64,000 nt of DNA from Sipunculus nudus (lineage: Eukaryota; Annelida; Sipuncula; Golfingiida; Sipunculidae). The position numbers and the translations under genes were made by a program. Below, in pieces: positions 2,711 to 40,456 of the stretch (its first letter is position 1; the number at the start of each line of letters is the position of its first letter). A model generated the notes under the pieces. The model saw only the letters and a list, made by a program, of their open reading frames with translations. It had not been told where the DNA came from and ran no database searches. The stretch covers positions 28,444,714 through 28,508,713 of the forward strand of contig CM049320.1 of assembly GCA_026874595.1 (NCBI GenBank), written 5' to 3'.

Positions 2711-3314
2711 TTAACGGTGAGCAACCGTGCAACCAGTCCTTTTCAAAACATATAAGCCAAACCCTACGCATAAAACACTAATAATCAAAATACCCAATGC
2801 AACACCTATTCCAATCACTAAATTGTAATTTGCTCTTTCTTCTTTCCCGATCCACTGAGCTTCTTTGTTTGAAGAGCCACCTGGTGGCACAGTCATCACT
2901 TCGGACGTCCGTTCTGAAATGGTAGTGAACATTAAAGGGTTAATCATCTTAACAAAAATTAAACTCTATCCAAATTATTCAAAGATTTTTTTATAAGAAT
3001 ATTTAACATGTATAATTACGTATTTTTAAAATAAATGCTCCACGTTTAAAATATCTCGTTGACTTGAATTGGCAATTTTGTACCATTACACTGAGCTGGC
3101 TTTGAGCTCCAGGTTCTGTTGGCGGTGCATGTTATGTTTTTAGATATGCTACCATCAGTCATCGTGTGCCCAGGATTACAAGTATAAAACACGGTGTCAT
3201 TAAGGTAGAAGTCTCCAAATGTTTCCGCATTTGTTCCGTTCCCCGGATGTCCACAATAATTTACTAGATAGTATGAGATAAATAGAAGTCACACACATGG
3301 ATTAGACATTCATA

Positions 3315-3350
<36 letters not shown>

Positions 3351-5077
3351 TATATGTTAAATCGATATTACTGATAGGAAAACGATGCATCTATTACGAA
3401 GGTAACAAACCTCTAAGCTTAGACCCCATTTGTGTCCGGAACTAAAAAGTATCAATAATAGAGGTATGCACCTAAGGGGTAGCTTTCATTGGCTATTTTA
3501 TATCACTATTACACAAATATAACAAGCAACGTTCAGCATTACTGTGTGGTATTTAATACACGTATAAATAACATTCATTCTGGATACATATGGATGCCCC
3601 CGTGTTATATTATGTATTTTATGTAAGATGCAGGTGTTTCATAATACTTACACTGACATCTGATCTGCATTGTGCAGTACTTTGTTGTATGACATGTTCC
3701 TAAACAAACAGGTCCTCTTCGTTTAGCCACGGCGGAGATTATACTGTTGTAACTATAAAACGTGTTACTCTTTATTGTTATTTATAGATAAAGAAAAAAA
3801 TATGTCCTATGTATGGCGTAGTTTAATTGTGTGCTGAAACCGTTTGATTGGTAAAAAGCTGTTCCCGTGTTGGATATAATGTATATAATATTATATCTTT
3901 GTTTTCAAAGAAAAGAGCAAAATAAATAAATCCCAAAGAAAATGAAATCACATTTATATGTGCACATCATAAGTGGTCCATTGATATGACATATATTAAT
4001 ACACCTCACAGCTACATATACCACATAAACAGAAAGATATGTAATCTTTTAGAACCAATGGAGGTGTGTGTACTTACTAGTCATGCAGTGCACAGTTGAC
4101 AATTGATGTACCATGCGGACAGGTCATTCTATGTGGTTTAGTTGTCTTAATCCTTATATCAATATTAACATATTTCCTGTTATCTGCTGTCACAGGCACG
4201 CATGTAAGGATAGACTAAAACCATGCATAACAGAAGATAGAACACAAAACTTTGAAAAATATTTGATAAGAATTTCAATATTTTAGGCATTAATATAAAC
4301 TTGCAATATTTCTTAGCTCTGCTTTACCCTACCTTCACTTAAACAAGGAGTGCCGAAACTGTGATCTTAGATTAATGTTTGGAAACCTTAAACGTGCGTG
4401 ATGAAATTCTAGGAGAAAACATTTTTTTATAAGGGCATTATTCATGATTGAGCCTAGAAAAAAAAAATCAAAAACATTCCGATCGCTTTTAAACTCTTTC
4501 AACTTAACTTTCACAAACTTAAACTGCTTCATTACACGTTGTGACAGCTTTCGGTAGCCAGTTATTTAATTTAATTGTCAGATCATGAAAAATGTGGCAA
4601 TAAAAACGTTTGTCTAACGACTCGATATATGCTTTGATCCCAACTATGCCTGTACCTTGACGGTGTAGTGAGTTTAAACGTACCTTAACACCAGCCGTGT
4701 TTGTGTGTTGGTTGAAGGACATGCAAGTGTCTTGAATGAATTTTGATCCGTCACATTGTATGCTACTGCAGCGGCATTCATGAGCGACATGTCCAGGTGG
4801 ACAGTTAGCTTTACTCTGAGCATCATTCTGACCACGTGACATTGGTCCATGGACTTCTGTTTAATACATTTCATTTCTCTATTAAAGTTTCATTGTCGCC
4901 AATAGGAGTCCAAAATTTCAAAACGGAAATTATTATATGTTCAATAAATACGATTATTTGCAAAGATTAGTACAGACGGTAATTGTATTACATTCATACA
5001 AGACTCATAAACCATTACTTGCCAACCACCTTCGCAGTCCATCCAAATTCGGCACAATCAGAAAATATAATCAGCAT
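2711..5077 (-). CDS. Two 6-Cys modules + sushi domain single-pass membrane protein (copy B)
   Basis: Predicted cell-surface protein of about 282 residues, function unknown. Exons on the minus strand: 5077-5023 (candidate signal exon, ATG at 5077, GC donor), 4856-4684, 4214-4078, 3752-3652, 3263-3084, 2913-2711. The last five have clean AG acceptors and GT donors, and their phases agree with the other copies. The second exon carries CPPGHVAHECRC and CDG; exons 3-4 carry TCVP, TCPHG, VNC, VCLGTC and IRCQ. The 180-nt sushi exon has YCGHPGNGT, ITCTAN, W and a closing C. The last exon has a Pro/Ser stalk, a Gly-rich helix (IGIGVALGILIISVLCVGFG) and a short basic tail. Exon 4 is one codon longer than in the paralogues. 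The first exon is the weak part: its signal peptide is poor and rests on alignment with copy E. It runs opposite to the other copies. Confidence 0.72.
3316..3348. repeat. (AT)n microsatellite
   Basis: Uninterrupted AT dinucleotide run in the intron of copy B between the sushi exon and the preceding exon. Confidence 0.9.
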
Positions 5078-5196
5078 TGCTTGACAAATACCGAAAATGA
5101 AACCCCGATATGCAGAAACCAATATCTAAAAGGAAGATGCTTTATATGTATATGCTTTTTATTTAACCTTTAAAGAGAAAGGTAGATAATATACTA

Positions 5197-5198
<2 letters not shown>

Positions 5199-5272
<74 letters not shown>
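5199..5272. repeat. (AT)n microsatellite, 37 units
   Basis: Perfect AT run just upstream of copy B. A second, shorter run lies at about 5521-5554. Apparent peptides of alternating Ile-Tyr read from such runs are artefacts. Confidence 0.92.
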
Positions 5273-5275
<3 letters not shown>

Positions 5276-5518
5276 CGAGCTTCGGTTTAACAGCACTTGA
5301 GGCATATTTATATGGTTTGTTGTTTAATATATGTAAATTTGTTTATATATTTGTTGAGGTAACAGTCTCCATGTTTATGCTCTCTTATCTTATTATTTAT
5401 CTAAGTATTAACATCTGTAGTGTTCCATTTAGGTTCGGGATTGAATGACTGATTCACGAACTCATGATTCACGAAGTCACGAACACACAGCTTCGCACAC
5501 AGAAGCCGGTTTAATATG

Positions 5519-5560
<42 letters not shown>

Positions 5561-6496
5561 TATATGCGTGTGTGTGCTTGTGTGTGTTTGTGTGTTCTAT
5601 GTAGACTATTAGAATATGTATAGATATAAAGCATAGATTACTTTGAATCAAATAAATGTACAATTGAACATTACCTTCTTGCTCTTTGAAAAAGGTTTTC
5701 TTACCATCATTGTATCAGCAATGGAATGGATACCACAAACTGATATCTTTTGTCATTTCGGAATATTAAAGCTGTGGCGCTGTCAATGGACCGTGGGAAC
5801 TCGTGTGTTTTTATCACTCATCCTTATAATTGCCACTATTGCTAGTTGTTAGCACAGCCAAATGAGGTCCAATATTAATACACAGGGTACATATTTGCTT
5901 ATGTCAAAGTGGCTGTTATCAGTGTTTTAGTCCATGTCTTGTAATAAAGCTTCTTCGCTACAGTTAAGAAAGATGTGAGGTCGATCAGTTTTATTGTACA
6001 GTATGGTGACTGAATTGACAGGTTAATAAGAACCTAGCTATAATCAGATAATTACTCTTTTGGTCCATTTCACGCGTCGCATATATTTATACAAAGATAT
6101 ACAAAACAAGAAGTAACTTGGAACAGTGAGTAACAAGTGCATGAAAAATGAAAAATTTCCGTATCGACAAGTAACTAGCTTCGTCTTCATGTTACGTTGT
6201 AGGGGCCTACATGTCACGGTCCCGTCTTCGTCTTCTTGTGACGTGTAGGGGCTAGAGCCCTGCGCGGTTCGGAATTTAGAGCACGCACCCGCCCTGCTAT
6301 TCAAACCATCAGCCCGCAACTACCCGCCCCGCAGTTGTCAAAACCCGCCCTGCACCGCCCCGCACCAAAAAAAAAATAAATCGACCGAGACCCGCCCCGC
6401 ACATTTAGCTCTCAGCCCGCATCCGCAGATGTGACCGTCAGTCTTCAGGTTCAAGATCGAGGAGTCCAAGATCTATGGATATGCACAATTTAAGGC

Positions 6497-7037
6497 TAGT
6501 CTGTCCATTAGTTTTAGACTTATTTCTTCACAGTACTGTTAAGTGATGGGGTATTAAAAGGCGCAAAAACAAGAAAAGTACAGACGATGGTACCACCCGT
6601 CAAAAGATTAAGCTATCCAAGATCTTCAGTCAATTTGATTTTTGGACCAATCCATGTATCCCTTATTGAAATACTTTATGATTTTGTATGGTTTTCACCA
6701 TATATGGCATTATTAAAGGTCTAGGCCACTTTAACAGCAAACTTCTTGTCCCCAGTTTAAATATACATCATCTGATAACTTATGTGTATGTATTTGCATA
6801 ATATGAAAGTAATCTGTCCATTGGATTTTGACTTATAGTACTGTTAAGTGGCAATGATTGGGATATTAAACGGTACGAAATCAAGAAAAGGATAATAGGT
6901 GGTGCCACCAGTTTCCGGTACATGACAACATACAAGATCTCTTCGTCAAGTTGATTTTTGGATCAATCCATGCAAGATTTCTTGAGATATTTAAGAATTT
7001 TTGTGATTTTCCACCAAAAATGGACCTATTAAAGGTC
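6497..7037 (+). repeat. Diverged tandem direct repeat, about 310-bp period
   Basis: Blocks 6497-6722 and about 6811-7037 align over their length. Shared words in the same order include CTGTCCATT, ACTGTTAAGTG, AACAAGAAAAG-like, TGATTTTTGGA, CAATCCATG and ATTAAAGGTCT. No coding potential is evident. Confidence 0.6.
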
Positions 7038-8214
7038 TCTTCAGCGGCGGCGCGACCGTGCTTAAACCGTAGTATCCGGACTTTGTCTGGGGATTCGTTT
7101 ACAAAATTCAACATATGAAGTTATAAAGCTAACAGTATAATTAACGTTTAACTATATTTCCCATGCTTATTGTATGTCGTTTGCTTTATATATGAGAGGC
7201 TAATCTTTCGCGAATTCTTGATTTAGAACTTTTCGCGAGTTTTTTCGCGTTTCCCCCTGAACCTTTAAAATCTAAGTAAAACAGTCTTTGTGTTAACTAT
7301 AAAATGAAAATAAGTTCTACAATGCCTCACTTTTTAGTGTTACAGTCATAATATTATATAGTTAAAGTCTACTACATATATTACAATAATCAAAATGTAT
7401 TTACATGGGCCAGTACCGATACCATGCCCAGATTAGACTGGTGGTTAATGAGCCATGTTTTCAAATGTGTGATAACTAGTTTGTGCAGATGCATCGTTAG
7501 TCATTTAATTCAATGGAGCATCTTATTATCGAGAATTTTACGTGTTGTTTCACATTCTCGAATATTGTGAAATTGAACCCTCGTGTACAATAGGTATCTT
7601 CAGTATGCTGCTAAACGGAGACATAAAAATAAAAACTCATGCATATACCAATCAATTTCTATAAAATTTGTATTCATAGAGGTACACTAATTGTCACTAG
7701 CTGCATTAGCTAGACGACAGTACTTGCGCACCACAGTACACACCTTTTAGTTGACAAAGAGTATAATTCTGTTCAGTGATGATCAGCTGATGAGCTGAAA
7801 GGGAAGGCTATGGAAGTGCAGAGGGAGTCATATCTATGTTTTGGTTGTGTACACAAGAATCGATAACAAATGAGCGCCATCCTCATTATCATATTCTGCT
7901 ATGCCAATACAGTCCTCTAAACTGGCCAGTGCCCTTTGCCTTATCCCTGGTTATAGCAGACCTCTATCTTTGTGAGTTATATAAAGCCATATCCTGCTGG
8001 TACCCTACGCAGTGACTAATAAAAGATGTATAATATTGGTACTATACCCTCATTCTGACAACATGCATGGTCCCCGCATTTTGTAAATCCATCTCAAAAC
8101 GAAATTTATATTCCACCGGTAAATTATAGTAATTCTGTAAACGAAATAACCAAAGGAACATAAACACTGCAGCACTGTACAATTAAGTAAATGCAATCAT
8201 CTCCTCCTATATAC

Positions 8215-8216
<2 letters not shown>

Positions 8217-8269
<53 letters not shown>
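8217..8269. repeat. (AT)n microsatellite
   Basis: Perfect AT dinucleotide run in intergenic sequence. Confidence 0.9.
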
Positions 8270-8272
<3 letters not shown>

Positions 8273-13676: not shown

Positions 13677-13717
<41 letters not shown>

Positions 13718-16700
13718 AAATATCAGTTTATGTCTGGATGTGCTACTATTCGTATAATTGTATCCCAATCAACGTGAAATAAGCAAATAAAGGTACCCTG
13801 GAAGTTCAACTTGTGTAATTGAACATTCGTCATTCATTTGGAACTTCAAGATATTGATTGATCCATTCATCCATGCTGATTTCGCTGTCACTCAATTGTC
13901 ATATACTAATGAACAAGCTGAAAGATGGAAGTCTTCCAATATTCAATTTAAACTGCAGTATGTATCCAATTACACCACACCCTTCTGCTTTAATACTACA
14001 TATTAGTATATTGTTATTTACCTGCTTCCTACCATTTGCGCGATTGTACAAGAGACATTTTACTGGAATATAAATAACACGTGTACCAATTATCACATTT
14101 TTAGTTTGAACATCCATATAGCGGAAAAACATAAATTGCATGCCATCTTTATGACAATATTAAATACAAAACCTTGCCACCAATATCCAATTACCAATAC
14201 AAATATATATTTTGAAGACGAGATGACATATGTCAGTTGTATCAAACCTGTACATACCTCATTTATCACGGCAATATTACCTATTCTCTCCTGATGCAGG
14301 TTTTAATTATGTATTTGTACTTTTCACACACGTTGTGAGAGCGTCCTAACCATTCTGCACCCGACGTTTGTTAATCTCTGAAAGACAAAATTGTTCAACA
14401 AACAATGAAGCAAGCTATTATCTTTCCAGATGGGACAAAGGTAACCTTAAACATAGATTTCTTCAATTTGTAGGTTTCTGAAAACTTGGTCTGTTATTTT
14501 TACCTTGGCACGTGATCTATACGGTCTGAAACAGAATATTCAATAATTATTTCTAAACCATTTCCAAAGTGTTAAATGTCCAAAAGCGCAGGGAAGGATT
14601 TTATATTGATATGAAGCTGCGCATTGAATAGCTGGTATAAAGAAAAATAAATGGTTACGTTTTCTTCATGTAAACAAATACACCTTAACCTATGCCTTTC
14701 TTTCTTTGGTTGTGATAGTTGACTTTTAAATTATATTAGGTCTTGTTCTGCATCTTGTATGCTTATCTACGGTACGGATCAGCTACGACTGGTAAATTAT
14801 TTTTCATTTTTTGTAACAATCCCACAATTCGAACAACACAAAAAACGATTACCCGTAACTCATACAAAGATATTTTCCAGTATATTTTTATTTTATGTTC
14901 AATGTCTGACAATGTAATGGTAAAGTTAATCTTGCCGTTTTTTTCGAATAGATGGGAGATAAAAATTATATAATTCTTGTAATGTTGATCATAAACATGC
15001 GTTGTCAAAAACAATAATATTACTCCAAATTGTCAAGCTTTTAAATATACCTCCATTGATCTAATGCATTTCCCTATACAGTTCAACACAAAACGCTTAA
15101 TGACGAACAACTGATATCATTAAGTGATCTTGTAAATAATTGAATATTATGTATTCTTCATTTAATTTTAATGTTTACCTATTAGCTTCATCAACATTTA
15201 GTTTCACATGCAAATAATGATGTGAGTGAACTTATCGCACAGAAATTATTGGACCATGGTCAGCTGGTCAAGGTGACGCCGAAAGTCGGGTTAACTGCCC
15301 GGATGGATATGTAGCGCAGCGCTGTCGTTGTAGCGTTAAACATTGTGATGGAGCAGAATTCTACAAGGATACTTGCATAGCTTTCAACGAAAATACAAAC
15401 CTAAAAGGAATACAGGTGGGTATTACGTCCACACATTCAGGTAAAAATAGGATTAATTAACCAATTCAGAGTCAATATATTATTGATCGTTATTATTATT
15501 TAGATAACAACCTTGGCGAACATTTTTGTTGTTGCAAGGTCCCGAGTAAATTTGTCTGTTTGATGAATCCTATGGACATATTCACCAACGTTTCCTTGTT
15601 GTATGAAACAACCAACGTTATTTACTAGCTGCAAGTGCCTAAGATGTAACAAGAATATTATGGTATTTTAAAAACAATGGTTTATGACGCTTTCTATAAT
15701 CTCCCGCCATTATAATGGAAACATCTTTATCGAGCAGGCCGTGCTGACATGTGCTATAGCGAAAGAAGACAACAGGAAATATGTTAATATTTATCGAATG
15801 CTGAGGACGACAAAACAACAAACACTGGTTTGTCCTCAGGGGACAAAAATCGTTAACTGCGTCATACTAGACTTGTAAGTGTCCTCTGGGGAGACTTTTT
15901 ACCTTTATGTATTAATATTTTGTAAATAACGAAAAAATATATATCATTTATTTAAACTAGAATACTTGACATAATCCCGTTTTCCAACGAAATTAAAATC
16001 ATAATACCAATATTTAGAATTCCATTATAATCTACCTTTGATGGAGGAAACCTCTGAAAGGGCATAAATTAAATGTTCATTTTGGTTTGTCTACAGTTTT
16101 GGCGGTTTATTCGCAGAGGATGGACTCACAGGAGGCGTATGTTCAGGAAAGTGTTACAAAACAACCAACTGCAAGTTGCAGATAAGATGTCAGCGTAAGC
16201 GTTCCAACTCAAATATTTTCACACAATTAAAATATGGCATATATGTTCCCATACACTAAATTATATTAATCGTTAATATAAATGTATTTATATTCCTTTC
16301 ATTTAAAATAGCATTTTTTTTATCATTTCTTGCTTGAAAGGATATTATCAAAAGTATGTAATACATGCCTGTGGACTAGTTAACCTTTCATGCTTCGCAT
16401 TAACCCATTATATAGCAGATGTAAGTTGACAGCAATTCCTGTCATAATCGTCCTAATTTCTGGGTTCTCTTTCTTTTTAAATACTTTCGCCTGGTTTCAT
16501 TTTTCTGTTACCTTTGACCTTGATTTTCACAGTTATGTGTCCATAAAACCAATTTTATTTTCATCTTTTTCCCGGAATATAAAAATGATTGAATCAGACT
16601 GAAAGATGCATTTAACACTCCACTACAAATTACCGAATGAAAAACGCAAGTTTAGAGATTTATGATTTTTATCATGTATTCCCTTTAAGTGACATATTGC

Positions 16701-19700
16701 GGTGATCCTGGAAATGGAACGAATGCGAGAAAGATTGGGGATTATTACTTAAATGACACAGTTTCATATTACTGTAATCCTGACCATGCCATGAGTGACG
16801 GAAGTGTCGCAAAGAATATTACATGCACCGCAAGCGGAGTTTGGGATTCCGACCCAGCCCAGTGTACTGGTATGCAACTAACATGGTATAAACGGTTTCA
16901 GCATCAACGTTTGATCCATACTCGGAAAAGAAATAATATTTATAATTGTTCGAAATAATTAATGTAAAATTCTTTGATATTAATGAAATAAAATTTGGAA
17001 TATAGGGAAAAACCACGACCCAATTTAATACCTTTATTCCGTTAACATTTCAGAAGAAGCGTCGGCAAGTCTCAGTCAGACTATTTCAGCAAAAGTTTTC
17101 AAGTTGAATCCTTCAAATCATGCTGCTGACGCCACTAAGCTGATCCAACAAACTACAATACATGTACCTAAAATGTTGAGGAACAGAGATTCGGTAAAGC
17201 CAGCAAGCAACAACATTGGCATTGCGATGGGTGTGCCGTTGGGTATTCTTTTCAGTATCTTTCTATGTATGGGGTTTGGTTTCTTTGCGTTGAAAGGGAA
17301 GGTACGGCCATGGACTCGCAGCTGAAACATCAAGGCCCTGAAAAAGAACGCTTGTCGTGGCAGACTTTGTGCTTTGCAGTAATTGTATACTAACTATTTC
17401 TTCCACCTCAATTATTAATTAAAGTCATTAACACGCACATCTACTGTTACATTTTTTTATTTATTAATCTTAATTAAAAAGCTGCTTTCGTTCATATTCT
17501 TTACATGAAGGAATAATACAATTATTGATTCGGTTTGCTTATATAAAACCAATAGCTGATAACCCCGGTAAACTAGCTTTTTATCGGGGGTGGGGGTGGG
17601 GGGGGGGGGGGGTCTGGGGTCAAAAGAGATGAGAAAGGTTGGCTCATTTATGTATTCTAATGTTTAAATAAAATATAAGTTTCAGTGCGCGAGGAAGCTT
17701 AACGATTGAAACGGTAAATGCATATCCCGTAAATAGCAGAAGCGAACCAAAAAAAAGGGGGGGGGGGGGGGAGCGGCTCCCCATTGTAGACCAATTTTTT
17801 CGGATTAGACCCTTTTTAGGTATTGTTATGTGACCCTCATTTTCCTTAATTCTGCATCTACCCTGAGTAGGCCTTCACAGTGTGCGTGCAAACTTTTGTC
17901 CGTAAGTAGATGGTAGATATAAAACGAAATTGAAAATTCTATTTAATGTGTTTGGTAGGAACTAAATTATGTATTCAAGATGGGGAATAACTAAAAGTAA
18001 GGTATAATATGTTTTATAGGGACCTAATGATAACTTTAAGGTTGAAAACCTCTCAACCTAGAATCAGTGTTTTGTGTGGAAAACCACTTGAAGTAAGAAA
18101 AAAAAAAGACTATCATTTATAAAATTATGATGGAAGAAATGAATGCCAAGGGATCTAGATTCACATGTTGTCACATTTACTGACCATGCAGGTGGGTCAG
18201 TGACTGTTTAAAACATGATTAAATGCTTCACTGACTGCTGGGGTTATTCATGTATAAAATAGACCCATAGCAGGCATTCCAGTCGTTGCCCAAAACAGTT
18301 GTTTTTTTGGTTATAACCACGTAATAAGAAAACCACGCTAAAATTACTTAACATAATGTATATCAACAATTGCTAATTCAAATTTCTGCGAGGTCCCTGT
18401 GGGAGCAATAACTTTTAAAATGAGGTATAGCACAATGTCATACACAACTGGACAGGTGTTAGATCACACTCTGCATATTCTTGATGCCTAGTATACCTTA
18501 TGTTGGGAAACCGACATTTCATTGGAATATTTATAAATTAATATCATAGACCGGTAGGACACCATTTTTTCTTGGATTAGAGGATCTTTGTACACAAGGT
18601 AAATTAACAGATGTTAACATAATGTATAATTGACATGCAGCTAAACATTTAACCCAGAACTGCCCTGGCTATAAAAAAAGTAAACTAAAACACAACACTT
18701 TGCTTCAGCTTTAATTGCAATGTCTGCATATATCTAAATTAAATTCACAAAAAAGTGATCCAGAATTTTTCAGTATATTTTCCTGGCATAGCTTGGTTCC
18801 TTTAAACTTGTTTATAATTTTATACTGCATAAGGGAGTGACTGATGATTTCAAAGTCACATAATAGTAAAGGATACCATTTCACAATATTGTAAACTGTT
18901 ACCTTCTAGAACAGTTTTACTTTGTTCTCAAGTCATTCTAGGGTAATTGCCAGTTGTTACTCAGTTTACAAACACCCTTAAAATGAATGCAGCTGCATAA
19001 AGAGGAGTAAAGTAATACTAATGACTAAAAGGCCTATAGAGTAATTAATATTAAAAAAATCTTAAAAACCTCGATGGATTGAACCAACGTTTTGACGGAC
19101 AACCCTTCATTAAATTTTTATAAAACAAGGGAAATCAAGGGATTCGTGTGAGCATTCCGCCACGTTTATTGTTTGCTTTTGTTAGCCTGACAGAAGCAGA
19201 GAGCTTAAGTAGATGCATGGGTAATGATGTAACCTCTGGTTATTTTCTTCAGTGGGGAAGTATGCGTCTTTCTTAATCTAGGTTCAAATATTGGTGATTT
19301 GGTTGATATGCTCGCATGTATAAGCATTTAAAGATTTTATACCACGATCATCCCCAAATGATTCTGATTCAATGAAGTCAAAACCCATAGTGAGGAGTTT
19401 TGCACATTACCAACGTACACGTACGATCATAATGATAGCTGAACCTACCTTTTTTTCAGTTATTTAAAAGGGGAAATATGGATTTAGTGTCACCATGTCT
19501 ATGTGAGGCCTCATTTCTTGACTTGAGTATATATAATTTGCCGCAGACGTGAGATCTTATGACAGGAACTAAGAATCATGCTATGCCTTAAGAGTAAATG
19601 TAATCAAGATATTTAAACGACCAGAGATTACTGGAATTAAAGAAGACTGACTAAGCAGAATATGAAGTAAATTATGTTATTTTGGTTTCCCTGGTTGTCC

Positions 19701-24365: not shown

Positions 24366-24426
<61 letters not shown>
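24366..24426. repeat. (AT)n microsatellite
   Basis: Perfect AT run upstream of copy D; the counterpart in unit 1 is the shorter run at about 13679-13712, so repeat length differs between duplicates. Confidence 0.9.
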
Positions 24427-24428
<2 letters not shown>

Positions 24429-25117: not shown

Positions 25118-28100
25118 ATGAAGCAAGCGGTTTTCTTTCCACAGCTAAGAAAGGTAACATTAAACAATAATTTCCTCGATATCCTTATTTCTTCAAACTG
25201 TGCCTGTTATCTATACTTTGACACGTGTTCGATAGGTTCTGAAACAGAACATTTAATAATAATTTCCCAACCATTCCGAAAGTTTTAAAAAATCAAAGCA
25301 GAGAGAGGTTTTTTTATAGATATGGAGCTGCCCTGAGGATAAATAATGTATAGAATAAAGAAATGGTTACGTTTACTTCCTGGAAACAAATACACCTTGA
25401 TCTATGCCTTGCTTTGTTTTGATTGTAATTGCAGACTTTTTATTAGCTCAGCTGACTATAAGTCATCTGAGCTATAGTCGTTGTCCATTGTCCGTCGTCC
25501 GTCCGTCTGTCTGTCCGTCCGTCCGTCTGTCGGTCTGGATGTCCGTCCGTAAGACTGGCACGTTTCGACACCGTTGGACCTACGAATCTGAAATTCGGCA
25601 TACAGTTAGATGTCCCCAAAATCTCCTACCATGCCGAAAATTGGGTCAATAAGACTTTGTTCCTTCGAGATATTAAGGAAAAACCTCAATTTTTTATTAG
25701 AAATCTATTTTCACACTTCATGACTGCCTAATATCAAAACCACTTATCTGGTTTTCTTCATATTTACCATAAATTTTCCTCTTTATAGTTCCTATGTACA
25801 TGCCAGATATTAAGTCAGTATTATATAATTTAAAACAGTTATGGGCCCAAACATAATGGACTTTGTAAAAAAATCAGGAAGATATTTGGTCACTTAAGAC
25901 CAAAAGTGTTAAAGGTAGGGACTTTTTTCCAGTAATACAACTATAATTAATCAAAATTTAATTTTATACCAAAAATTAGATCATAATCTGTTAAATTTTT
26001 TAAAGGCAAAAATATAAAATTGGTACCTTAAATTTTGCCCAACTTTGGCCACGGCACATTTTTTTCCTGTAAGTACTGTGGTTTTAATTTTCACAGCATG
26101 TATTTATAAGGATTTAATCTGGTCAAATCTGATATTTGAAAATTAAAGCTGCAAAATTAGGCTAGTTATTGAATTTTTTGGAGGCTCTTGTTGTATTCCC
26201 TTACATTATCAAGCAGTCCACTTCGATGACTGTAGGTCATTCAGTGCACATCTCTATGCTCCCCAGGCTGTTGGCATAATTTTAGATGTCCCCAAAATCT
26301 CCTTACATACCGAAAATTGGGTCATTAGGACTTCGTTCCTTCGAGATATTAAGGAAAAAACTCCATTTTCCATAAAAAAAGCCATTGTTACACTTCAAGG
26401 CTGGCTTATATCAAAACCACTGATCTGTTTTTGATCGTATATAGTATTCACATTCGCTCATACATTTTCTATGAACTTACCAAAAATTAGGTCAGTATTG
26501 GGTATTATTTTGAAGTTATGGGCCAAAACATAATGCAATTTAAAAAAAAATCAGGAAATATATTTACTCACCTAACATGGGAATTGCTGAACCTAGAGAC
26601 TTTTTATCAGGAATATAACTTTATTTAATCAAGAGTCAATTGTTTACCCAAAATTAGATCTGAATTTTGCAAATTTTTCAAGTTATTAGCATAAATAAAA
26701 AATCAATACCTTTAATTTTGTCCATCTTTGGCACTGTTGATTCAATTTTCACAGCATATATACATAAGGATTTAATCTTTTAAAATCTGAAAGTTCAAAG
26801 AAATTGATTGGAAAGAATAGCTTTTATTAATGTTTTCATACACCATGTGAAGTGTTGTTTACATCTAGCCCACCTAGTAGTACAGCCTTCATTTGCATTA
26901 TATAAACCACCCCAGGCAGCTTGCCTTGGGTCAGCTTGGCCACTACCAGCAGGCTTCCCCTCTGCCCTGCACTCCCCCCCCCAATGGTGCATAAACTAGA
27001 TGAATGTTATTATTTATCTGTATTTGATGCATTCTTTTTCCAGGCTAAACTACATTTTAGATTTTGTTTTGTACCACCAGGGTTACAATGATTAAAGTGT
27101 ACATTTAATTGTGTCCACAAAGTGGTGTATTGCTATGAAAGTGTGGATGTTCATGAGATAAGTAATTCCTTACTTCAGAGGAGTAAAAACTTCACCAGGT
27201 GTGAAATTGACTATTAATTCCAGTAATAAATTAAAACTGGGATAGTAATTAGCACAATGATATTGTTTGTCCCTCATTCAACCAACAGTGTGTATACTTT
27301 ATTTGAAAAGATGTTTTATTTTATCAAATTTACTGAATCTTTTATTTTATTTTGGTGAATAAAATTAAGCATGTACTGAAAACTCCAATGTGCAAAACTT
27401 TTTAATAGTGATTCAAGAAATATTCTTGTAGATGCCATGTTGTGGCATTATTTTATTTTAAATCTTATGATTTAAAATAATAAAATATATGTGTATGCAT
27501 AATATGACCCAATATGAGCTACACTGGATATATGATGATTGCAACTTTTGCACCAATTCAAATATTTTAACTTATAGTTTCAGTTTTTTACTCTGTATAT
27601 ATAATGATTGCAACTTTTGCAACAATTCTAATATTTTAACTTATATTTTCAGGTTTTTTTTATTAAAAATTTATAAAACCTGTAAATAAAAAAAAATGAT
27701 TCAGATAAAAACTTCTTAATGGAAAAAGTGGATATGCTTAAAAAAAATAGGCTTATATATAAACTTAAATGCATTATTCCCTTGAAAGTGAAATAAAGGC
27801 ATTAGTCCATTCTGTCCACTTGCCTGTCCATCTGTAAATTTTCATATGCATTACAGTATCTCAAAACTTTTACTGTTTTTCTTCATGACAGTCATGTCAG
27901 AGTATTAGTTTGCAATCATATATTTAGAACTTTACTATAACCAAGTAGGAGGGCCCCTTTCCTCTTAGCTTTTCATATTCTTATATAAATGAAAAACATT
28001 ACAATACAATATTTCTACATCCACCTTCGTGCTGCCCTCACTTTTCCCTTCTCTGAACCCCATCCCAAAGTCAGCCTCAGTAAGCAAGAACAAGATGAAA

Positions 28101-31100
28101 CAGATATATTCATACTTTAATATATTGTATAACTATTCGTCCATAGGTACCTATGTACATGCCAGAAATTATGTCAATATTGTGTAATATGTAGACATAG
28201 TGGGCATCACAATAATGTACCTTGTCAAGACTAAAGAGATATTGTGTCATACAGTCACAAATTCATAAATCACTTCATCAGCATAGTTAATCATAACATC
28301 ATATCTGTCAAATTGAAAGCTTGCATTTACTGTTTTTCTTCATGACAGTCTTGTCAGAGTATTAGTTTGCAATCATATATTTAGAACTTTACTATAACCA
28401 AGTAGGAGGGCCCCTTTCCTCTTAGCTTTTCATATTCTTATATAAATGAAAAACATTACAATAGAATATTTCTACATCCACCTTCGTGCTGCCCTCACTT
28501 TTCCCTTCTCTGAACCCCATCCAAAAGTCAGCCTCAGTAAGCAAGAACAAGATGAATTAGATATATTCATACTTTAATATTTTGTATAACTATTCGTCCA
28601 TAGGTACCTATGTACATGCCAGAAATTATGTCAATATTGTGTAATATATAGACATAGTGGGCATCACAATAATGTACATTGTCAAGACTAAAGAGATATT
28701 GTGTCATACAGTCACAAATTCATAAATCACTTCATCAGCATAGTTAATCATAACATCATATCTGTCAAATTGAAAGCTTGCAGACTACCATACACTTTAG
28801 ATCCTTCAACAAATAGCCTTATCATCATTCTACTACTGCTTATTACTGCTGTCATTGCATTCATATTTGCTCAAATATATCACAATTTTCAACCCCTCCT
28901 AAATAAATAAAAAATAAACCACTATATTTGACTCTATTAATCCATCAGTCAGGTTATTTCATTTATCATTTACTCACATATTACATTACATTCCTTTATA
29001 ATAGCCCAACATGTCCATGATATTCATAAGCTTTATCGACTCGATATAGTATCACCATGGAGAAACATTAATAGTCCAATCACGATCAGCTGAGCGCCGT
29101 GAACCATGGGTCCCTTGTTTTATTTCAGGTGTTGTGCTGCATCCTATTCGCATATCTACGGTACGGATCAGCTTCGACGGGTAAATTATTTCATAATTAA
29201 ATTATATTATCATCATTAAGTGAACTTGTAAATAATTGAATAGTATATATTTTTCATTCATATTTAATGTTTACCTCTTAACCTCATTAATATTTAGTTT
29301 AATATGGCAAGTGTTGATACGACTGACCTGTTCGCACAGAAATACTTGGTTCAAGGTCAGCTGGGAAGAATGATGCCGAAAGTTGGGCAAACTGCCCGGA
29401 TGGATATGTAGCGCAAAGCTGTCTATGTAGCGTAACAAATTGTGATGGCGCCAAATTCGACAAAAATACTTGCAAGGCTTTTAACGAAATCACAAACCTA
29501 AGAGGAGTACAGGTATGTATGTCTTCCACACTTTAGGTTAAAATAGGAGTAATTGACCAATTCAGAGTCAATATATATAAATGTTATAATTATTACTCAG
29601 ATAAGAACCTTTGCGAACATTTTCTGTTGTTGGCAAGTTCCCATGGCAAAATGTCTCTACGGTGAATCCTTTAAACATATTCCTCAAGGTTACCTTGTAT
29701 CATGAAACAACCCACTTTATCTACCACTTGAAGCTTTCTATAATGGAAACATCCTGTTTGAGCAGGCCGTGCTGACATGTGTGGTAGCGAAAGAAGACAA
29801 CAGGAAATATGTCAATATTAATGGATGGGTGAAAACGAAAAAACGACAAACAATGGTCTGTCCTCGGGGGACAAAAATCGTTAACTGCGTCATACTAGAC
29901 CTGTACGTGTCTTTTTTTACTTTATGCCTTAATGTATAAATATTTTGTAAAAGAACGATGTATCATTTATTTAAACTAGAATTACTTTTCCTTACCTCGT
30001 TTTCCAACCGATAGAAATAATAATGTAATTAACTGAACCCTTTAAGGGGGATCAAAGTAAATGTTTTCGTTTGCCTGTAGTTTTGGCGGCACACTCACAG
30101 AGGCTGGTCTTAAAGGAGGCGTGTGTTCCGGAAAGTGTTACAAAGTTAACCACTGTCAGTTGCAGATAAGATGTCAGCGTAAGCGGTCAAACTCAAATAT
30201 TTTCACACAATTCAAATGATGCATATATCTTCCCATACACTATTTTATATTAAACGTTAATATAATTTGATATAAATAACTTTCATTTAAAATAACTTAT
30301 TTTATCTTTCCTTGCTTGTAAGGTAATTGTCAAAAAAGTGTAATAAATGCCTGTGCGTTAGCTAATCTCTCATAGTTAGCATTAACCCCTTATATAACAG
30401 GTGTAAGTTGAAACGACATTCCCTGTAATAATGGTTCTATTTCACGGGTTGGTTTTCGGTTTAAAAACTTGTATATATTTTCTTTAGCTTACGCCTGGTT
30501 CCATTCAATCTTTGACCTTTGACCTATGAGCTTGATTTTCACAGCTATGTGTGAATAAAGCCAATTTTATTTTTCTTCTGTTTCTCAGAGTATAGAGATA
30601 ATGAAATTAGACTGGAATACATTTTACAACCCACTACATATTGCCGTATAGAAAATGCGAGTTTTGAGAATTATAATATGATATTGTATTTGCTGCATAT
30701 TTCCCCCTAGTGGCATATTGCGGATATCCGGGAAATGGAACGAACGCGGAAAAGATTGGGGATTATTACTTGAATGACACAGTTTCTTATTACTGTAATC
30801 CTGACCGTGCCATGAGTGACGGAAGCGTCGCAAAGAATATTACATGCACAGCATACGGAGTTTGGGATTCCGACCCAGCCGAGTGTACTGGTATGCAAAC
30901 AACTTTAAATAAAGGGTTTCTGTTTTTAACGTTTGATAGAAGGCACAGTAATAATGTTCGATATCGGGGAAATTAAAATATAATTAATGATATATAAGTG
31001 AGAATAAAGGAAAACCACAACCCAATTTAAAACTTTTGATTGACATTTCAGTAGAAGCGTCGGCACTTTTCTTTAAGACTATTTCCGCGACAGTTTTCGG

Positions 31101-31395
31101 AATACATACTTCAAACGACGCTGGTGTCACCACTAAGCTTATCCAACAAACTACAATACCTGTACCTAAAATGTTAAGAAAAAGAGAATCGGTGAACCCA
31201 GGAAGCTTCAACTTTGGCATTGCAATTGGTGTCCCCCTTGGTATTCTTTTCACTGTATTGCTGTGTATGGGGATTGGATTCTTCGCGTTGAAAGGAGGTA
31301 CGGCCATTGACTTGCAGCTGAAAAATCATGGTTCTGAAAAAGAACACTTGTCGTGGCAGAATTGGCGTTATGCCTTACATCTCAATTATTTTTAA
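25118..31395 (+). CDS. Two 6-Cys modules + sushi domain single-pass membrane protein (copy D)
   Basis: Tandem duplicate of copy C, 339 residues. Exons: 25118-25153, 29129-29180, 29340-29512, 29766-29902, 30081-30178, 30711-30890, 31052-31395. The inner exon lengths (52, 173, 137, 98, 180) are identical to copy C and all splice signals are intact. Signal peptide: basic start (MKQAVFFPQLRK) then VLCCILFAYL. Modules: CPDGYVAQSCLC, CDGAKF, TCPRG-type C-x8-C, VCSGKC, IRCQ. Sushi domain about 167-225 (YCGYPGNGT, ITCTAY, W, ECTG). Helix about 279-305 (IAIGVPLGILFTVLLCMGIG) with small-xxx-small spacing. The tail is about 34 residues, acidic/basic mixed and ending YALHLNYF, much longer than in the other copies. 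Intron 1 is about 4 kb because of a repeat insertion. The second Cys of CRC is kept, but the Arg is Leu. No ITAM- or ITIM-like signature is evident in the tail. Confidence 0.8.
25445..29116 (+). mobile_element. 3.7 kb repeat/transposable element inserted in intron 1 of copy D
   Basis: Comparison with copy C shows that sequence continuous there (14725-14740) is split here. The insert begins with AGCTCAGCTGACTATAAG and ends near GGGTCCCTTG, flanked by TTTTATT on both sides, a likely target-site duplication. The first 70 nt contain an imperfect palindrome (CTCAGCTGACT/AGTCATCTGAG) and a CCGTCCGT run (25498-25555). Two diverged internal repeats start near 25610 and 26285 (CCCCAAAATCTCCT...). A second, inverted copy of the left part lies at about 53.8-55.39 kb. 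No transposase or reverse transcriptase frame is visible, so it is non-autonomous or decayed. Class is unknown; the terminal hairpin beside CTAA (reverse strand) is reminiscent of a Helitron 3' end, but the other copy lacks CTAA. Confidence 0.68.
27871..28782 (+). repeat. Near-identical 457-bp tandem duplication
   Basis: Copy 1 27871-28327 and copy 2 28328-28782 differ at only a few positions (for example GTCATGTCAG versus GTCTTGTCAG and CATCCCAAAG versus CATCCAAAAG). It lies inside the inserted element, is recent, and has no coding capacity. Confidence 0.88.
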
Positions 31396-34600: not shown

Positions 34601-36219
34601 AAATGAAAATTTATGACAAATAAAGGGAAACGAACACAATAAAATGAGCTCAACGATGGGGGGGGGGGGGGGGCCTCTGGATCCGCCACTGAAGACACAG
34701 GTGGAAATTCCTGCGCCCATTCTTATAGAACCTAGGAGTAGGTGGTCCCGGAAACGCTATATATAAAATAAACGCCATATATAAAACATTTCAACATTTC
34801 ATCCGTCAAGAAGTAACCGTCCCAGAAGTTTTTGTGTTCATCTGTACACACTATGGTCTAGGCGCTGATCGATTCGCAATCGACCAATGTGGCATCGCAA
34901 CGTGGCAATATAAGTCTTCGGGTGTATTAAAAGCGGCGGAGTATTAACAAAAGCAGCACTTTTATTGGAACACTGGTCTTTAAGTGAATATCACATAATC
35001 CTTCAATTCGAGAATCCTAGTATTATAAATGCGTTTGTATTTTAATTTTGTGTATTTATACACGAGTTTATGATGTCACTTCAAAACCATGATAACGACT
35101 GGGTGTGAACAAGTAATGTGATTTGAAATATTTTATGTCAACAGGGATTCGTTATTAACCCTATGAAACAGGTCAAGTCGCAACCTTGTATCTTTTCTTT
35201 GATGGGATTGACTTAAAATATTGATCTGATAAGTGCTGCATCCTGGACAGAAGCCATAATGTCTCTGGCAGGTTTTCATTTTACACTAGTCGTTGCAAAT
35301 ACCAATATGTAAAGTGGAAAAACATGAGAGGCCATAGAATAGAATTGTTATTCTTGTCTATAAAGTTTTCCAGTTATCATTATTATGAGCATTTATACCG
35401 TTGATTGTTGGGACTGGATCGGACAGTAAGGGTATTTGGATCAGATGTTTCAAAAGAACAGATCATGATTACAATATAACTGATTTTGTACAATCATGTT
35501 TATAGTTGTCTTGGGAACTGTATGTTTCTCGCGTCAGATTGGCTGATTAAAAAGTATCCGGCTCCTGTTTTGATGAGAAGCACTCCACTGGAAGAACCAA
35601 TGGTGAAAATCTGTCCGGTTTCTCCCCAAAACTAACCTGACTTCCCGACGTAATGTGTTTCGTGCAATCTTATTATCTCATTTGAACACCGCCTGAACAA
35701 TTATCTCATCATGGAACTTACCAGTCGTGAACGCTATGAGGGCCCTTTTGTACTATGTCATTACCAGGCGAAAGGTCAGCTTGCCAAATCATCTCTAGGG
35801 TCTGAGATAATTACATGGAAATATCTTTCTTCACCGACCAACCAAAAAAAAAAAAAAAAAAAGAAACACATTCCAATAGAAAATTTGTTTTTCAGAGAAG
35901 CGACGGGTGGTTTCTTAATGGAGCGAACGAGGCCTCATAACCAAACTTTAAATTATCTGACAATCCGAGGGTAGGTAATCTGACATCCACTCAGTGCTAT
36001 AAATATTTGCATTATGTAATAAGAACAAATGTAATAAAATAATGTTAATGATTATTGATGGGTATAAATATAAGAATGGATTAAATTACTAGACCCTGGA
36101 TGTATCAAGTGTATAAATGTGATCGAGTACTTGCAGGTTCACACGGTGCCGCGTTAATCGACTCAACAGAAAAAAATACGCGATTCAATGTTTCCCATGA
36201 TGGTAAGAAAACCGTTTTA
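31396..36219. other. 3' flank of copy D and spacer to copy E
   Basis: To 35177 this is the right part of duplication unit 2. After that it is spacer with a poly-A run (35843-35860) and repeat blocks related to 36758-37017. Poly-G runs lie at 32042-32051 and 34658-34673. No gene was recognised. Confidence 0.5.
34172..34695. mobile_element. MITE-like element with GGCGGATCCAG-type ends
   Basis: The left end reads GCAATGGCGAATCCAGA. The right end, reversed, reads CAGTGGCGGATCCAGA. Comparison with unit 1 (about 20570-20790) shows that this block replaces or interrupts sequence that is different there. It contains an AT run at 34297-34317 and a G run near the right end. Related GGATCCA ends occur near 60278. 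Confidence 0.5.
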
Positions 36220-37017
36220 ATGCTGCCGAAGGTAAATCCAAAACGTACATGTATTATGTATCTAGGATGCCAAGGTTTCCTATAGTAATTACATCTACAC
36301 ATACATGTATATATATCTGTATATATATATGTTTTTTTTTAAACATGACACATTTTGTGTAATGCAGACACCCATATTACGTTTATGAGGAATATTCCTG
36401 GTTTCACATTATTTTCAGGAAGTGGTTGTTGTATTTCTAACGTGCTGCATATCGGGATTGGCCATGAGGACCCTTGGCAAGTGACGTTTTATCTAACCTC
36501 TGTATATATTTGTTCTATTCTATTGAATCTAGAAAATTATGAAAAATATTTACTAACTTTTAAAATTTCTAAAACTTTAAAATGATTAAAATTAAGCAAT
36601 ACCTATATAGGTCTAACAAAGTTGCCTCTTTGACCGGGGGTATGTTGCAAATTTCTTTGTCTCGAAAAATTAATGTCGAAAAAATAGAATCATATGGGTT
36701 TAATAATTCCAATGAAAAAAACAATGTGGAAAAATTTAATTTATCAAGCAGAAGTGCAGGAACCATCTCTAGGGTCTGTGAAAATGACATGGAAGTACCT
36801 TCTTTTACAGGCCAGCCACATAATAAATTAAATACATTCCAATAGGAGAGTTGTTTATAATAGCAATGATGGGTAATTTCTAAATGGAGCTAAAGAGGTC
36901 TCATTACCAACGTTAAAGTATTTGGTCCGACCATCCGAGGATAGGTAATCTGACATCCACTGATTGATACAAATATTTGCATTATGTAATAGGAACAAAT
37001 GTAATAAAAAATGTGAA
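35790..37017 (+). repeat. About 260-bp repeat present twice around the signal exons of copy E
   Basis: Blocks about 35790-36045 and 36758-37017 share TCTCTAGGGTCTG, ACATGGAA, GGTAATCTGACATCCACT and ATATTTGCATTATGTAATA in the same order. The second block is bounded by a near-perfect 39-bp direct repeat (36722-36760 and 37023-37061) that includes the splice acceptor of the next coding exon. Confidence 0.72.
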
Positions 37018-40000
37018 TAAACCAATGTGGAAAAATTAAATTTATCAAGCAGAAGTGCAGGGGCCACCATCCATGGGTTTGGATGATGCTGAGAGTGAGG
37101 CTGACTGTCCACCTGGGTATGTTGCACATAGTTGCCGCTGTGGCAGTACACAGTGTGATGGGGCCTTATTTTTCCAAAACACTTGCAAAGCCTTCAATCA
37201 ACTCGCCAACGTAGCTGGGGTTAAGGTATGTGTAAATAGATCATACAAACGTTTACACTGCAATATGAAATGACATGGCCCGGAAAAGCGTAAAATGTTT
37301 TGCAGCACTGAAGCCTTTTGACTCCCCGAAATTAATCAACCTTTTAACTGTTTGGATCATGGAACTTTAGTAAAATGATTACCTTTTGCTACTTTAGTAA
37401 AATGATTACCTTTTGTTCAGTCATGATGAATCTTCATTAAATAGACCTTCTGCCGGTATCCCACTTTTTATCTTTTGCAATGGTGTGCCTTATGTGTGTA
37501 ATACATCACACAACAGGCAATGAATGTGTACATCGAGCAGCCAAATTTCATGAAACGAAGCATCTAAATTATTTATATGTCACACCACTTGGGATGTGAA
37601 CTTCTAAGTTCTTTTAAGTCAGTTAAAATAACAGGCATACCAGTCATCAACACACCCAAAATAAAACTATAAGACAGTCGTAAAATAACAAAAATATATA
37701 ATAAATAAATGAATTACTTACAAATCTGGTGGGGGTGTCGTCAGCACAAATATAACAATATTCACGATAGTTCACAAAGTTCAACGGCTGTATCAACGGC
37801 TCATTCAACTGCAGTCTACTGTAGCCCTCTAGTTACCGGATACAGAACAAACGCACTCTGTTGCGAAATTCAGCACCATCTTAGTTCGCGTCAAGACAAG
37901 GTCCCCTTGCATGTTCCTGGGAGCGCGCACCATCTAAAGATTGCCTGTCCTTCGACAAACAACTGTCTCTGAGGTGCTTTACAAATCGAATATCAACAAG
38001 GTGGCCTACCACAGGCGTAGAATGTCAATAACCACTGAAGCGATCGCCCATCTCGACACACAGAAGATAGCAGACCAGCCGGTTGGACTGCTGAAGTACA
38101 CTCAGGTGACGCTACATTCACGAAGCTCTCCGGATATTTTTATGCTAGCCGGGATTCCCGCCTTATATGAGACTCATGACGCCATAACTCCCGCTAGACT
38201 TCTCCGCCTATCAACACTTCCATCCACGATGTCCGTTGTCAACACACATCAAACTGAACGGCAACACGCTCCCAGGGACGATTTTATGGGAAAATCCCCC
38301 CTCAACTAATTCGCAGACAAGACGTCGCCTATCAGACACAGTTCCTAAAAAGACCGTCATACAATATCGGTTCTCACGAGTATATGCTAAATAGAAATGT
38401 AACATCAAAGGCTGCATGCGGCGAATACTGATTGCTTAACTGCTTTGATATTTACATTAAATGAACCACTTGATCTTCCTAACTGGGTATCTCACGCTAA
38501 TGGCAAAACATGATATTACATAAAAGAATTAATAAAAACTTAGAAAACAAGTATCTGGTCATACTTCCTGTACGTAAATATAAAAAGTCAAAGTCCTCTG
38601 GTAAAATTATAAATTTTTTTATCAAGGTTCTGCTTTTCTCATATGTGAAACCTGATTTTTAACAGTCGGTCCTGACTTGCGTACCTATGGGATTGGATAA
38701 CAGGAAATATGTCAATATTGGCATAAAAGTCAATACCACTCAACCACAAAGAATGACCTGTCCTCAGGGGACAAGAATAGTCAACTGTGGTCTTCATGAC
38801 TTGTAGGTACACACATACTTATGTTGTATCTAAGAGATTGCATATTTAGTCCGTTTCAAAAGATATGAGACAATGCCGCTTAAGGGAACGCATTTAGAGT
38901 AATTATTAGTGTGACTAGTTTTGTATTAAGATATTACAGTGTAAAATATGTAACATATAATCAGCAGTTTTCAGATTTTTATTTCTTCATTATTGTCCAC
39001 CATGACCAAACTGGAAACTCATTATGATTAATCTTATTTTTTTAATACAAGTTACAACAGCATGATGTCAGGCGCTACACTGAAAGGCCATGTTTGTTTA
39101 GGGACATGCCATACAATAACGTACTGCACCATGCAGATTAGATGCCAGTGTAAGTATTCAAGCTTTGATTTATAAATTCTCTACTTATATTTATTAAACC
39201 AAATTCTGATTTACATATAAAAAAATTCATCATATACTTATGTTTATATGTGTTTGAAATAAATACAATGGTAATACATTCACAATTTCTGCTTGCGTAT
39301 ACTGTCATATAAATACATGTAGCAAACATTCTCTTTTCGAAAAGGAACTTTATTTTAACAATCCATTTTTTTTCGCCAAGTGGGCTTTTGTGGAGATCCG
39401 GGAAACGGAACAAATGCAGAAAAAATCGGGGACTACTACCTTTATGACAGGGTGTCCTATCACTGTTATACTGGCCACAGCTTGAGTGATGGAACCTTCG
39501 AGAAAAATATAACGTGTACCGTCAACAGAACTTGGAGTTCAGGTCCAGCTCAGTGTTATGGTATAATAACAAAGTGCAATTATGTAAATTGCCATTCTAC
39601 ATCACGTTTGATATATTAACGCTAAAATATTACATAAATTGATAACGGTAACATAAATACTGAAAACATTCTTATAACAAAGTTGTATATAAGATAAAAC
39701 ATAAAATTTGTGTGTATGATTTAAGGGCCGAGTCACATCTAAAATATGATTTTATTCAACCGACACAAGTGTCAGAAAATAAACGATGTGGCGATTAACT
39801 GCAACGTTTTATCATAAAAGAGTTGCGGTCTCTTTTCGAGATGTCTATCGCACACATAACGCACAATTAAGATTGACCAATATGGCCTTGTGATAGTGTT
39901 AAAAGCGTTATGAAACAAGCATTACGACCACTCAAATGTCGCAAAGGCTCTATCGCCAGGGGACAGTGTAAGACTATAATAATACGGTGACAAGATGATT

Positions 40001-40456
40001 AGCCGCCCGTTATAGACATTTTGCGTTCATTTACGGTTACCCATGACCATAGCAGTGTTACGGTTTTCTGTGGAGGGTATGTCTTCATCTCGCTGTCATA
40101 TGCAATCACCGGAAATTACCAGTAACCTGTTCGATCGTCTTACGGTTGCCCATGGCTTCCAAAAACTGAAAATCGTAACAAATCGTAATTTGCCGTATCT
40201 TCTAATGTGACTGGGTCTTTAGCTTTAAATTATTTTAACTGGTCTTTATTTTAAATTTTCAGAACAGACATCGATTGTGAAAAATGAGACCACAACTGAA
40301 CCTTCTAAAAATGGATGTCCCAGAATAAGAAATAGGAGTTATACTTTAATCATTGGGATAGGGGTTGCATTGGGTGTTCTTGTTACAAGTATGTTATTTA
40401 TGGGGGCTGCCTTGATGGTTTTGAAAGGGAGTGCTAATACAAATGCCCAACGTTGA
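36220..40456 (+). CDS. Two 6-Cys modules + sushi domain single-pass membrane protein (copy E)
   Basis: Predicted 283-residue surface protein. Exons: 36220-36231 (ATG CTG CCG AAG), 36419-36476, 37053-37225, 38666-38802, 39052-39149, 39381-39560, 40263-40456. Exons 3-7 are strongly supported by phase, splice sites and lengths shared with B, C and D. The first two are inferred: together they give a signal peptide (EVVVVFLTCCISGLA) that enters exon 3 in phase, using a GC donor (G|GCAAGT). Modules: CPPGYVAHSCRC, CDGALF, TCKAFN, LTCVP; then TCPQGTRIVNC, VCLGTC, YCTM, IRCQ. Sushi domain FCGDPGNGT, ITCTVN, W, QCYG. Helix at about 247-273 (IGIGVALGVLVTSMLFMGAA) and an 11-residue tail. The intron between exons 3 and 4 holds a GC-richer patch, and the one before the last exon holds a MITE. 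Confidence 0.75.
37725..38430. other. GC-richer patch in the third intron of copy E, possible element
   Basis: Base composition differs clearly from the surrounding AT-rich intron, and stop-free frames of up to 122 codons occur. An inverted pair (CCTGGGAGCGCG near 37917, CGCTCCCAGG near 38268) lies within it. No protein domain was recognised in either strand. It may be a foreign repeat or a retro-copied fragment. Confidence 0.35.
39721..40221. mobile_element. MITE, about 500 bp, in the last intron of copy E
   Basis: Terminal inverted repeats of about 22 bp with few mismatches: left TTAAGGGCCGAGTCACATCT, right (reversed) CTAAAGACCCAGTCACATTA. No open frame of note. Typical of a non-autonomous DNA transposon, superfamily not assigned. 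Confidence 0.62.

Follow-up and report, generated by a model that had tools for sequence, protein, structure and literature searches.

A clustered family of predicted single-pass membrane proteins from Sipunculus nudus with two six-cysteine modules, a sushi domain and a likely distant relation to resistin and the C-terminal modules of PCSK9

The stretch of DNA analysed here, hereafter the window, comprises 64,000 nucleotides of Sipunculus nudus (Annelida, Sipuncula; GenBank assembly GCA_026874595.1, contig CM049320.1, positions 28,444,714 to 28,508,713 of the forward strand). It contains four genes, named copies B, C, D and E, of a large family whose proteins have two modules with six cysteines each, a sushi domain and a membrane helix. 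In our opinion, held with moderate confidence, the family has expanded in this lineage and consists of type I single-pass membrane proteins that would act in recognition or adhesion, the two modules being distantly related to resistin and to the C-terminal modules of PCSK9. A common fold of these modules with those of resistin and PCSK9 is, taken separately, likely, if unproven.

An initial annotation of this DNA had described four genes sharing exons of 173, 137, 98 or 101 and 180 bases, and all of them were recovered in copies B-E, with shared phases, when exons were joined according to splice sites and reading frame. Copies C, D and E are on the plus strand, and copy B is on the minus strand (2711-4856). 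In each copy, the 173-base exon encodes most of module 1, the 137-base exon carries the last cysteine of module 1 together with the first half of module 2, and the rest of module 2 comes from an exon of 98 bases in C, D and E and of 101 bases in B. All four also have the 180-base exon encoding the sushi domain and a final exon, from which the stalk, a single hydrophobic helix and the short tail derive. The shared exons are flanked by AG acceptors and GT donors, and all four mature frames are open from module 1 to a stop beyond the membrane helix. The 5' ends are incomplete in B, C and D and tentative in E: signal-peptide exons are partly visible in C and D, whose start codons were not located, tentative in E, where a GC donor (GCAAGT) is required, and not made out in B. 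A degenerate DNA pattern for the opening of module 1 (three mismatches or fewer) occurs three times in the window and not once in 100 shuffles. The features are as follows, in positions of the window.

2711 to 2913, minus strand: copy B, stalk, membrane helix, short tail and stop
3084 to 3263, minus strand: copy B, sushi exon (180 bases), Pfam Sushi match
3652 to 3752, minus strand: copy B, second exon of module 2 (101 bases)
4078 to 4214, minus strand: copy B, last cysteine of module 1 and first half of module 2 (137 bases)
4684 to 4856, minus strand: copy B, module 1 exon (173 bases)
14740 to 14791, plus strand: copy C, signal-peptide exon (part), with an 85% identical block common to the upstream regions of C and D
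15243 to 15415, plus strand: copy C, module 1 exon (173 bases)
15738 to 15874, plus strand: copy C, module 1/2 exon (137 bases)
16097 to 16194, plus strand: copy C, module 2 exon (98 bases)
16690 to 16869, plus strand: copy C, sushi exon (180 bases), Pfam Sushi match
17054 to 17325, plus strand: copy C, stalk, membrane helix, tail and stop
29129 to 29180, plus strand: copy D, signal-peptide exon (part)
29340 to 29512, plus strand: copy D, module 1 exon (173 bases)
29766 to 29902, plus strand: copy D, module 1/2 exon (137 bases)
30081 to 30178, plus strand: copy D, module 2 exon (98 bases)
30711 to 30890, plus strand: copy D, sushi exon (180 bases), Pfam Sushi match
31052 to 31395, plus strand: copy D, stalk, membrane helix, tail and stop
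36188 to 36202, plus strand: copy E, tentative start exon, with a 22-base block of 95% identity common to the upstream regions of B and E
36419 to 36476, plus strand: copy E, tentative signal-peptide exon with a GC donor
37053 to 37225, plus strand: copy E, module 1 exon (173 bases)
38666 to 38802, plus strand: copy E, module 1/2 exon (137 bases)
39052 to 39149, plus strand: copy E, module 2 exon (98 bases)
39381 to 39560, plus strand: copy E, sushi exon (180 bases), Pfam Sushi match
40263 to 40456, plus strand: copy E, stalk, membrane helix, tail and stop

The mature proteins of the four copies consist of 260-310 residues. Their alignment confirmed the twelve conserved cysteines reported initially, arranged in two sets of six, at positions 19, 28, 30, 35, 45 and 63 in module 1 and 90, 99, 119, 123, 129 and 135 in module 2 (copy E numbering). 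Each set is opened by C-x8-C, which is extended to C-x8-C-x-C in module 1 of all 24 aligned family members and stands without C-x-C in module 2. The sushi domain and the one membrane helix of the earlier description were also found: Pfam Sushi (PF00084) matched all four copies (best E-value 8.2e-9; copy E at 23.2 bits against a cut-off of 20.7), and the hydrophobic helix was recognized in each by reading. As had been stated, none of the four gene models contains a protease domain.

The search for further members covered the genome that holds the window (1.4265 Gb in 153 contigs). With the module 1 exon of copy E as query, 74 places were obtained at E <=0.01, and a second query also gave 74; the union of both searches comprises at least 82 module 1 matches on nine contigs, including 38 on contig C15 and 25 on contig C10. 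The most divergent module 1, used as a third query, found 33 places, none of them outside the 82. When neighbours separated by 150 kb or less were joined, 69 of the 82 matches fell in 20 clusters. Not all 82 are intact: four carry stops within the match, and a decayed fifth copy from the edge of the window, copy A, is counted among them. The four-gene cluster of the initial annotation stands as far as copies B-E are concerned, but the family is far larger than this cluster.

In twenty longer loci, drawn from the 25 best matches and not at random, module 1 is always present together with the first half of module 2. The second half, which is short, was detected at E <0.03 in 11 of them, and a sushi domain lies downstream in 19. 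A Ser/Thr-rich stalk, helix and short tail, judged by eye, are plausible in 13 of these 19 sushi loci, three others having no candidate and three an implausible one.

Module 1 was seen in 30 genes (29 in loci L001-L030, plus the second gene of locus L038), and 24 of them were aligned. The alignment omits the second gene of L038 as well as L006/L032, L007/L033 and L020/L045, whose splice sites were not settled by the exon prediction, and also L018/L043 and L023/L048, in which the prediction cut the start of the second exon short. All six module 1 cysteines are invariant in the 24 aligned members; five of the six unaligned genes keep all five cysteines expected in the module 1 exon, and one, the second gene of L038 (plus strand, 8277), is without the fourth. 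A 28-member version was obtained by adding seven rows and dropping L012/L037, L019/L044 and L024/L049. The six cysteines of module 2 are invariant in 13 aligned members out of 15 models with the second-half exon; L033 and L046, outside this alignment, each miss one module 2 cysteine and were included in a 15-member profile. Residues of split codons that were not assigned stand as X in the module 2 rows. Two minor observations concern module 1: in L035 (minus strand, 1004 and 1237), two near-identical module 1 exons about 230 bases apart represent a recent exon duplication, and L052 and L053 form a divergent module 1 subfamily with extra residues ahead of the fifth cysteine.

The genes of the family are under purifying selection. 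Over modules 1 and 2, the ratio of nonsynonymous to synonymous substitution rates (dN/dS) is 0.14-0.42 in all six pairs of copies B-E, these values being rough, since dS exceeds 1 (saturation) in four pairs. Constraint is weaker in the part with the stalk, helix and tail, where five of the six pairs gave finite values, of 0.30-0.61. The same ratio (omega) estimated with a codon model over 24 family members is 0.208 with F3X4 or 0.171 with empirical frequencies. On these values, the possibility that the family consists of pseudogenes was rejected, with the exception of copy A. This fifth, decayed copy straddles the left window edge, its module 1 exon being just outside and incomplete in its open frame; module 2 has lost the second and third cysteines and has a stop in its second half. 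By eye, a remnant of the sushi exon is also present in copy A (window 1-1200, plus strand, and locus L051). Its two listed remnants are given below.

19 to 132, plus strand: copy A, remnant of the module 1/2 exon, in which module 2 has lost its second cysteine
393 to 452, plus strand: copy A, remnant of the second module 2 exon, without the third cysteine and immediately followed by an in-frame stop

The relation of the modules to known proteins follows mainly from profile comparisons with two kinds of controls. In target shuffles, the letters of the target were permuted with the cysteines fixed (2000 per target), and in column shuffles, the alignment columns were permuted with the cysteine columns fixed (1000 each). 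The 24-member module 1 profile scored 11.4 bits against module 3 of PCSK9, the best of six outside targets, and none of 2000 shuffles reached this value (top shuffle 10.9). The scores against human resistin, RELM-beta and mouse resistin were reached by 22, 25 and 70 target shuffles, and those against PCSK9 modules 2 and 1 by 364 and 1012. Among the column shuffles of module 1, 2 reached the score for PCSK9 modules 2+3, 5 that for RELM-beta and 29 that for mouse resistin. The 13-member module 2 profile scored 13.9 bits against mouse resistin, which was attained by 0/2000 target shuffles (best 8.7) and 0/1000 column shuffles. Its other target scores were reached 2 times for RELM-beta, 4 for human resistin, 157 for PCSK9 module 3 and 891 for PCSK9 module 2, and one column shuffle reached the score for RELM-beta. 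With the 15-member module 2 profile, the corresponding numbers out of 2000 were 0 for mouse resistin, 5 for RELM-beta, 40 for human resistin and 212, 638 and 1633 for PCSK9 modules 3, 2 and 1. Within the fold group, each module has one clear best relative, which differs between the modules, the others being weaker or at chance. A likeness in cysteine spacing only was rejected, as cysteine-fixed shuffles never reach the score of the best target of either module.

Open searches lead to the same proteins. Resistin was matched by 8 of the 24 module 1 members in a Pfam scan (best E 0.01) and PCSK9_C3 by one (E 0.045); Chorion_S16 and Baculo_VP91_N were matched by one member each. The search of 177,635 PDB sequences with the 13-member module 2 profile gave four hits at E <=10, namely resistin entries 1rfx (E 0.067) and 1rgx (0.11), which we take to be mouse resistin, followed by tetranectin (0.61 and 1.3). 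Judging from these comparisons, resistin is at least as close to the family as PCSK9. We infer the fold from profile evidence that is below the usual thresholds but controlled by shuffles.

A number of results weigh against this assignment. No Resistin or PCSK9_C3 match attains the curated cut-off (25 bits; 26.7 bits), and the highest Resistin (PF06954) score shown, 16 bits, comes from a frame running into an intron. When the single modules of the four window copies were scanned, Resistin was found in two of four modules 1 and in none of four modules 2 (2/8), and whole-protein scans gave it in one of four copies, at E 4.7. Neither Resistin nor PCSK9 Pfam matches were present among the 13 module 2 members (scanned with an incorrect last residue in rows L030, L034 and L035). 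Genome-wide Pfam scans for Resistin and PCSK9_C3 gave no match at E <=1, PCSK9_C3 finding none in control genomes either. The 24- and 28-member module 1 profiles found no PDB chain at E <=10, and the PDB searches with single copies and the four-copy profile gave no useful result. The lowest E-value of any family query in the PDB (0.0032) was obtained for module 1 of copy E alone against 7a4a, an integrase-domain entry. This likeness was rejected, since E rose to 0.23 with the four-copy profile and the entry was absent with the 24- and 28-member profiles; the entry itself was not studied. Module 2 is at chance level against PCSK9 (320 of 1000 column shuffles reach the score for modules 2+3). 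The modules also resemble each other weakly: the score of one against the other was reached by 113, 482 and 367 of 2000 shuffles one way and by 49 and 550 the other way.

The earlier reading of a membrane-anchored PCSK9-type fold is retained in part, in its domain order without a protease, its ectodomain of two modules and, through the relation of module 1 to PCSK9 module 3, its link to the fold group of the PCSK9 C-terminal domain; it is limited by module 2, by the closeness of resistin and by the sub-threshold scores. Profile comparison with the PCSK9 modules had been proposed as a check; beyond the module 1 result above its shuffles, the comparison of hidden Markov models built from four sequences gave weak scores for resistin and none for PCSK9; it was so shallow that not even modules 2 and 3 of PCSK9 were linked to each other, and it was not used as evidence. 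Similarly, the proposed internal repeat is probable owing to the common C-x8-C opening, the six cysteines of each module and the fact that both modules point to one fold group, although their direct likeness is weak.

These shortcomings could also mean that the modules are an independent small disulphide-rich domain, whose similarity to resistin and PCSK9 is a convergence of cysteine spacing. The absence of any match above the curated cut-offs, the failure of module 1 to find a PDB chain, the lower E-value once given by the unrelated-looking 7a4a and the poor four-sequence comparisons would all agree with that. We consider such convergence unlikely, as the cysteine-fixed controls were not reached in either of the two best cases (0/2000 for module 1 with PCSK9 module 3; 0/2000 and 0/1000 for module 2 with mouse resistin) and open Pfam and PDB searches, each started from a different module, lead to one fold group.

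If the modules are distant relatives of resistin and PCSK9 modules, as we prefer to think, the proteins may be cell-surface recognition or adhesion receptors for protein or glycan ligands. The predicted order is a signal peptide, two disulphide-rich modules, one sushi domain, a Ser/Thr-rich stalk, a membrane helix and a tail of about 10-40 residues, in which no signalling domain was recognized. The two modules would form an outer binding head, far from the membrane, with the sushi domain and stalk as a spacer below it and the helix as the anchor. By analogy of layout with the disulphide pairings of the reference modules, the core bridges of module 1 may be C19-C63 and C28-C45, and those of module 2 C90-C135 and C99-C119. 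Such proteins could act via adhesion, capture, shedding or a partner chain, and because the tails are short, any signalling would proceed only through a partner. A long signalling tail was rejected, the tails being short as read by eye, which for the other loci was done without a domain search. Divergent clustered paralogues built on a fixed cysteine frame would suit a recognition repertoire, and the low average omega shows no direct sign of an arms race, which is another point against the role proposed here.

The same architecture can be viewed differently. IL-15R-alpha is a chain with a sushi domain, stalk, helix and short tail, and the family proteins might be ligand-presenting chains of this kind, in which the sushi domain binds and the double module is an extra head. 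The sushi domain in 19/20 loci and the stalk, helix and short tail in 13/19 are consistent with this, as is the fact that resistin is a secreted ligand; in the domain order, however, the modules sit outside the sushi domain, and we regard ligand presentation as improbable. Least convincing is a gamete-surface or self/non-self recognition set instead of an immune one, which seems unlikely: a large clustered family of divergent paralogues is compatible with any recognition role, but many gamete proteins change fast, and an average omega of about 0.2 lacks such change.

Compared with known systems, the family probably represents a known fold group in a new architecture and scale, and by the definitions of the resistin and PCSK9 families it belongs to neither. 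Resistins are hormones, small and secreted, in which a single domain of this kind follows a helical part. Resistin and resistin-like molecules (PF06954; 1rfx, 1rgx, 1rh7) and the family both have the CP.G opening and C-x8-C, and C-x-C is matched by module 1; in Pfam, module 1 matches resistin more often than any other family (8/24), and in the PDB resistin is the best match of module 2. In contrast, the PDB sequences of resistin have a terminal CC pair and more than six cysteines, whereas the family modules have six cysteines and no CC, and the family gene models carry two modules, a sushi domain, a stalk and a membrane helix instead of encoding a secreted protein. PCSK9 is a protease with three C-terminal six-cysteine modules and no membrane helix. 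Its C-terminal Cys/His-rich domain (PF18463 and sister families) shares with the family repeated six-cysteine modules with a C-x8-C opening; the family differs in having two modules, a sushi domain, a helix and no protease, and its module 2 is without likeness to PCSK9. The resemblance of the PCSK9 C-terminal domain to resistin is itself noted in passages of two articles, where Hampton et al. 2007 is cited (PMC4474570, PMC5403857).

Among invertebrates, secreted transcripts from the defensive secretion of ribbon worms were put in the PCSK9 superfamily, as stated in part of the source (PMC9132205), so an invertebrate PCSK9-type domain outside PCSK9 is not new in itself. Compared by description only, those transcripts are putative defensive toxins, and no sushi or membrane architecture is described for them in that part of the article. 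In snails, the Biomphalaria GRC and PTC2 clusters consist of single-pass transmembrane genes thought to mediate recognition, according to portions of PMC7494358 and PMC5310918. These clusters share with the family, again by description only, the clustering of single-pass membrane genes; Grctm6 is reported with long extracellular and intracellular parts without known domains, and the word "sushi" is absent from the main texts of these two articles. A protein combining two such modules with a sushi domain and a membrane helix was not found described in the open-licence library searched. The initial statement that no family of this architecture had been described agrees with this result, without being proven by it, and must be read beside the ribbon-worm transcripts.

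Which receptor resistin has and what task the C-terminal domain of PCSK9 performs are matters of debate, and the two proteins are linked to mammalian inflammation, as sections of PMC4474570 and PMC5403857 indicate. A large, well-formed, membrane-bound invertebrate family with such a module would give an outside view on what this fold evolved to do, and it would add an uncharted set of receptor-like genes. If the link is true, a fold known mainly from vertebrate metabolism occurs in a receptor-like role. The question of what the fold evolved for becomes testable, as ligand screens could be run on recombinant double modules of many paralogues. A bolder idea, which we find doubtful, is that the module of resistin and PCSK9 is an ancient recognition domain of animals. 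In this lineage, two copies of it would have been combined with a sushi domain and a membrane anchor and then amplified to about 80 loci as a clustered recognition repertoire, resistin and the tail of PCSK9 being vertebrate offshoots of an immune-type binding domain.

Other features of the window are of minor interest. Upstream of copy D (27869-28782, plus strand), a 457-base unit is present in two adjacent copies, which are 98% identical. A duplication of about 260 bases (77% identical) occupies positions 35787-36049 and 36761-37018, ending just upstream of the module 1 exon of copy E. Open frames at 46018-46239 and 46651-46977 (plus strand) are C-type-lectin-like by eye, the Pfam scan being empty at E <=0.01, and a coding stretch at 62237-63649 (minus strand) corresponds to an SLC12-type cation-chloride cotransporter (Pfam SLC12, E 2e-24).

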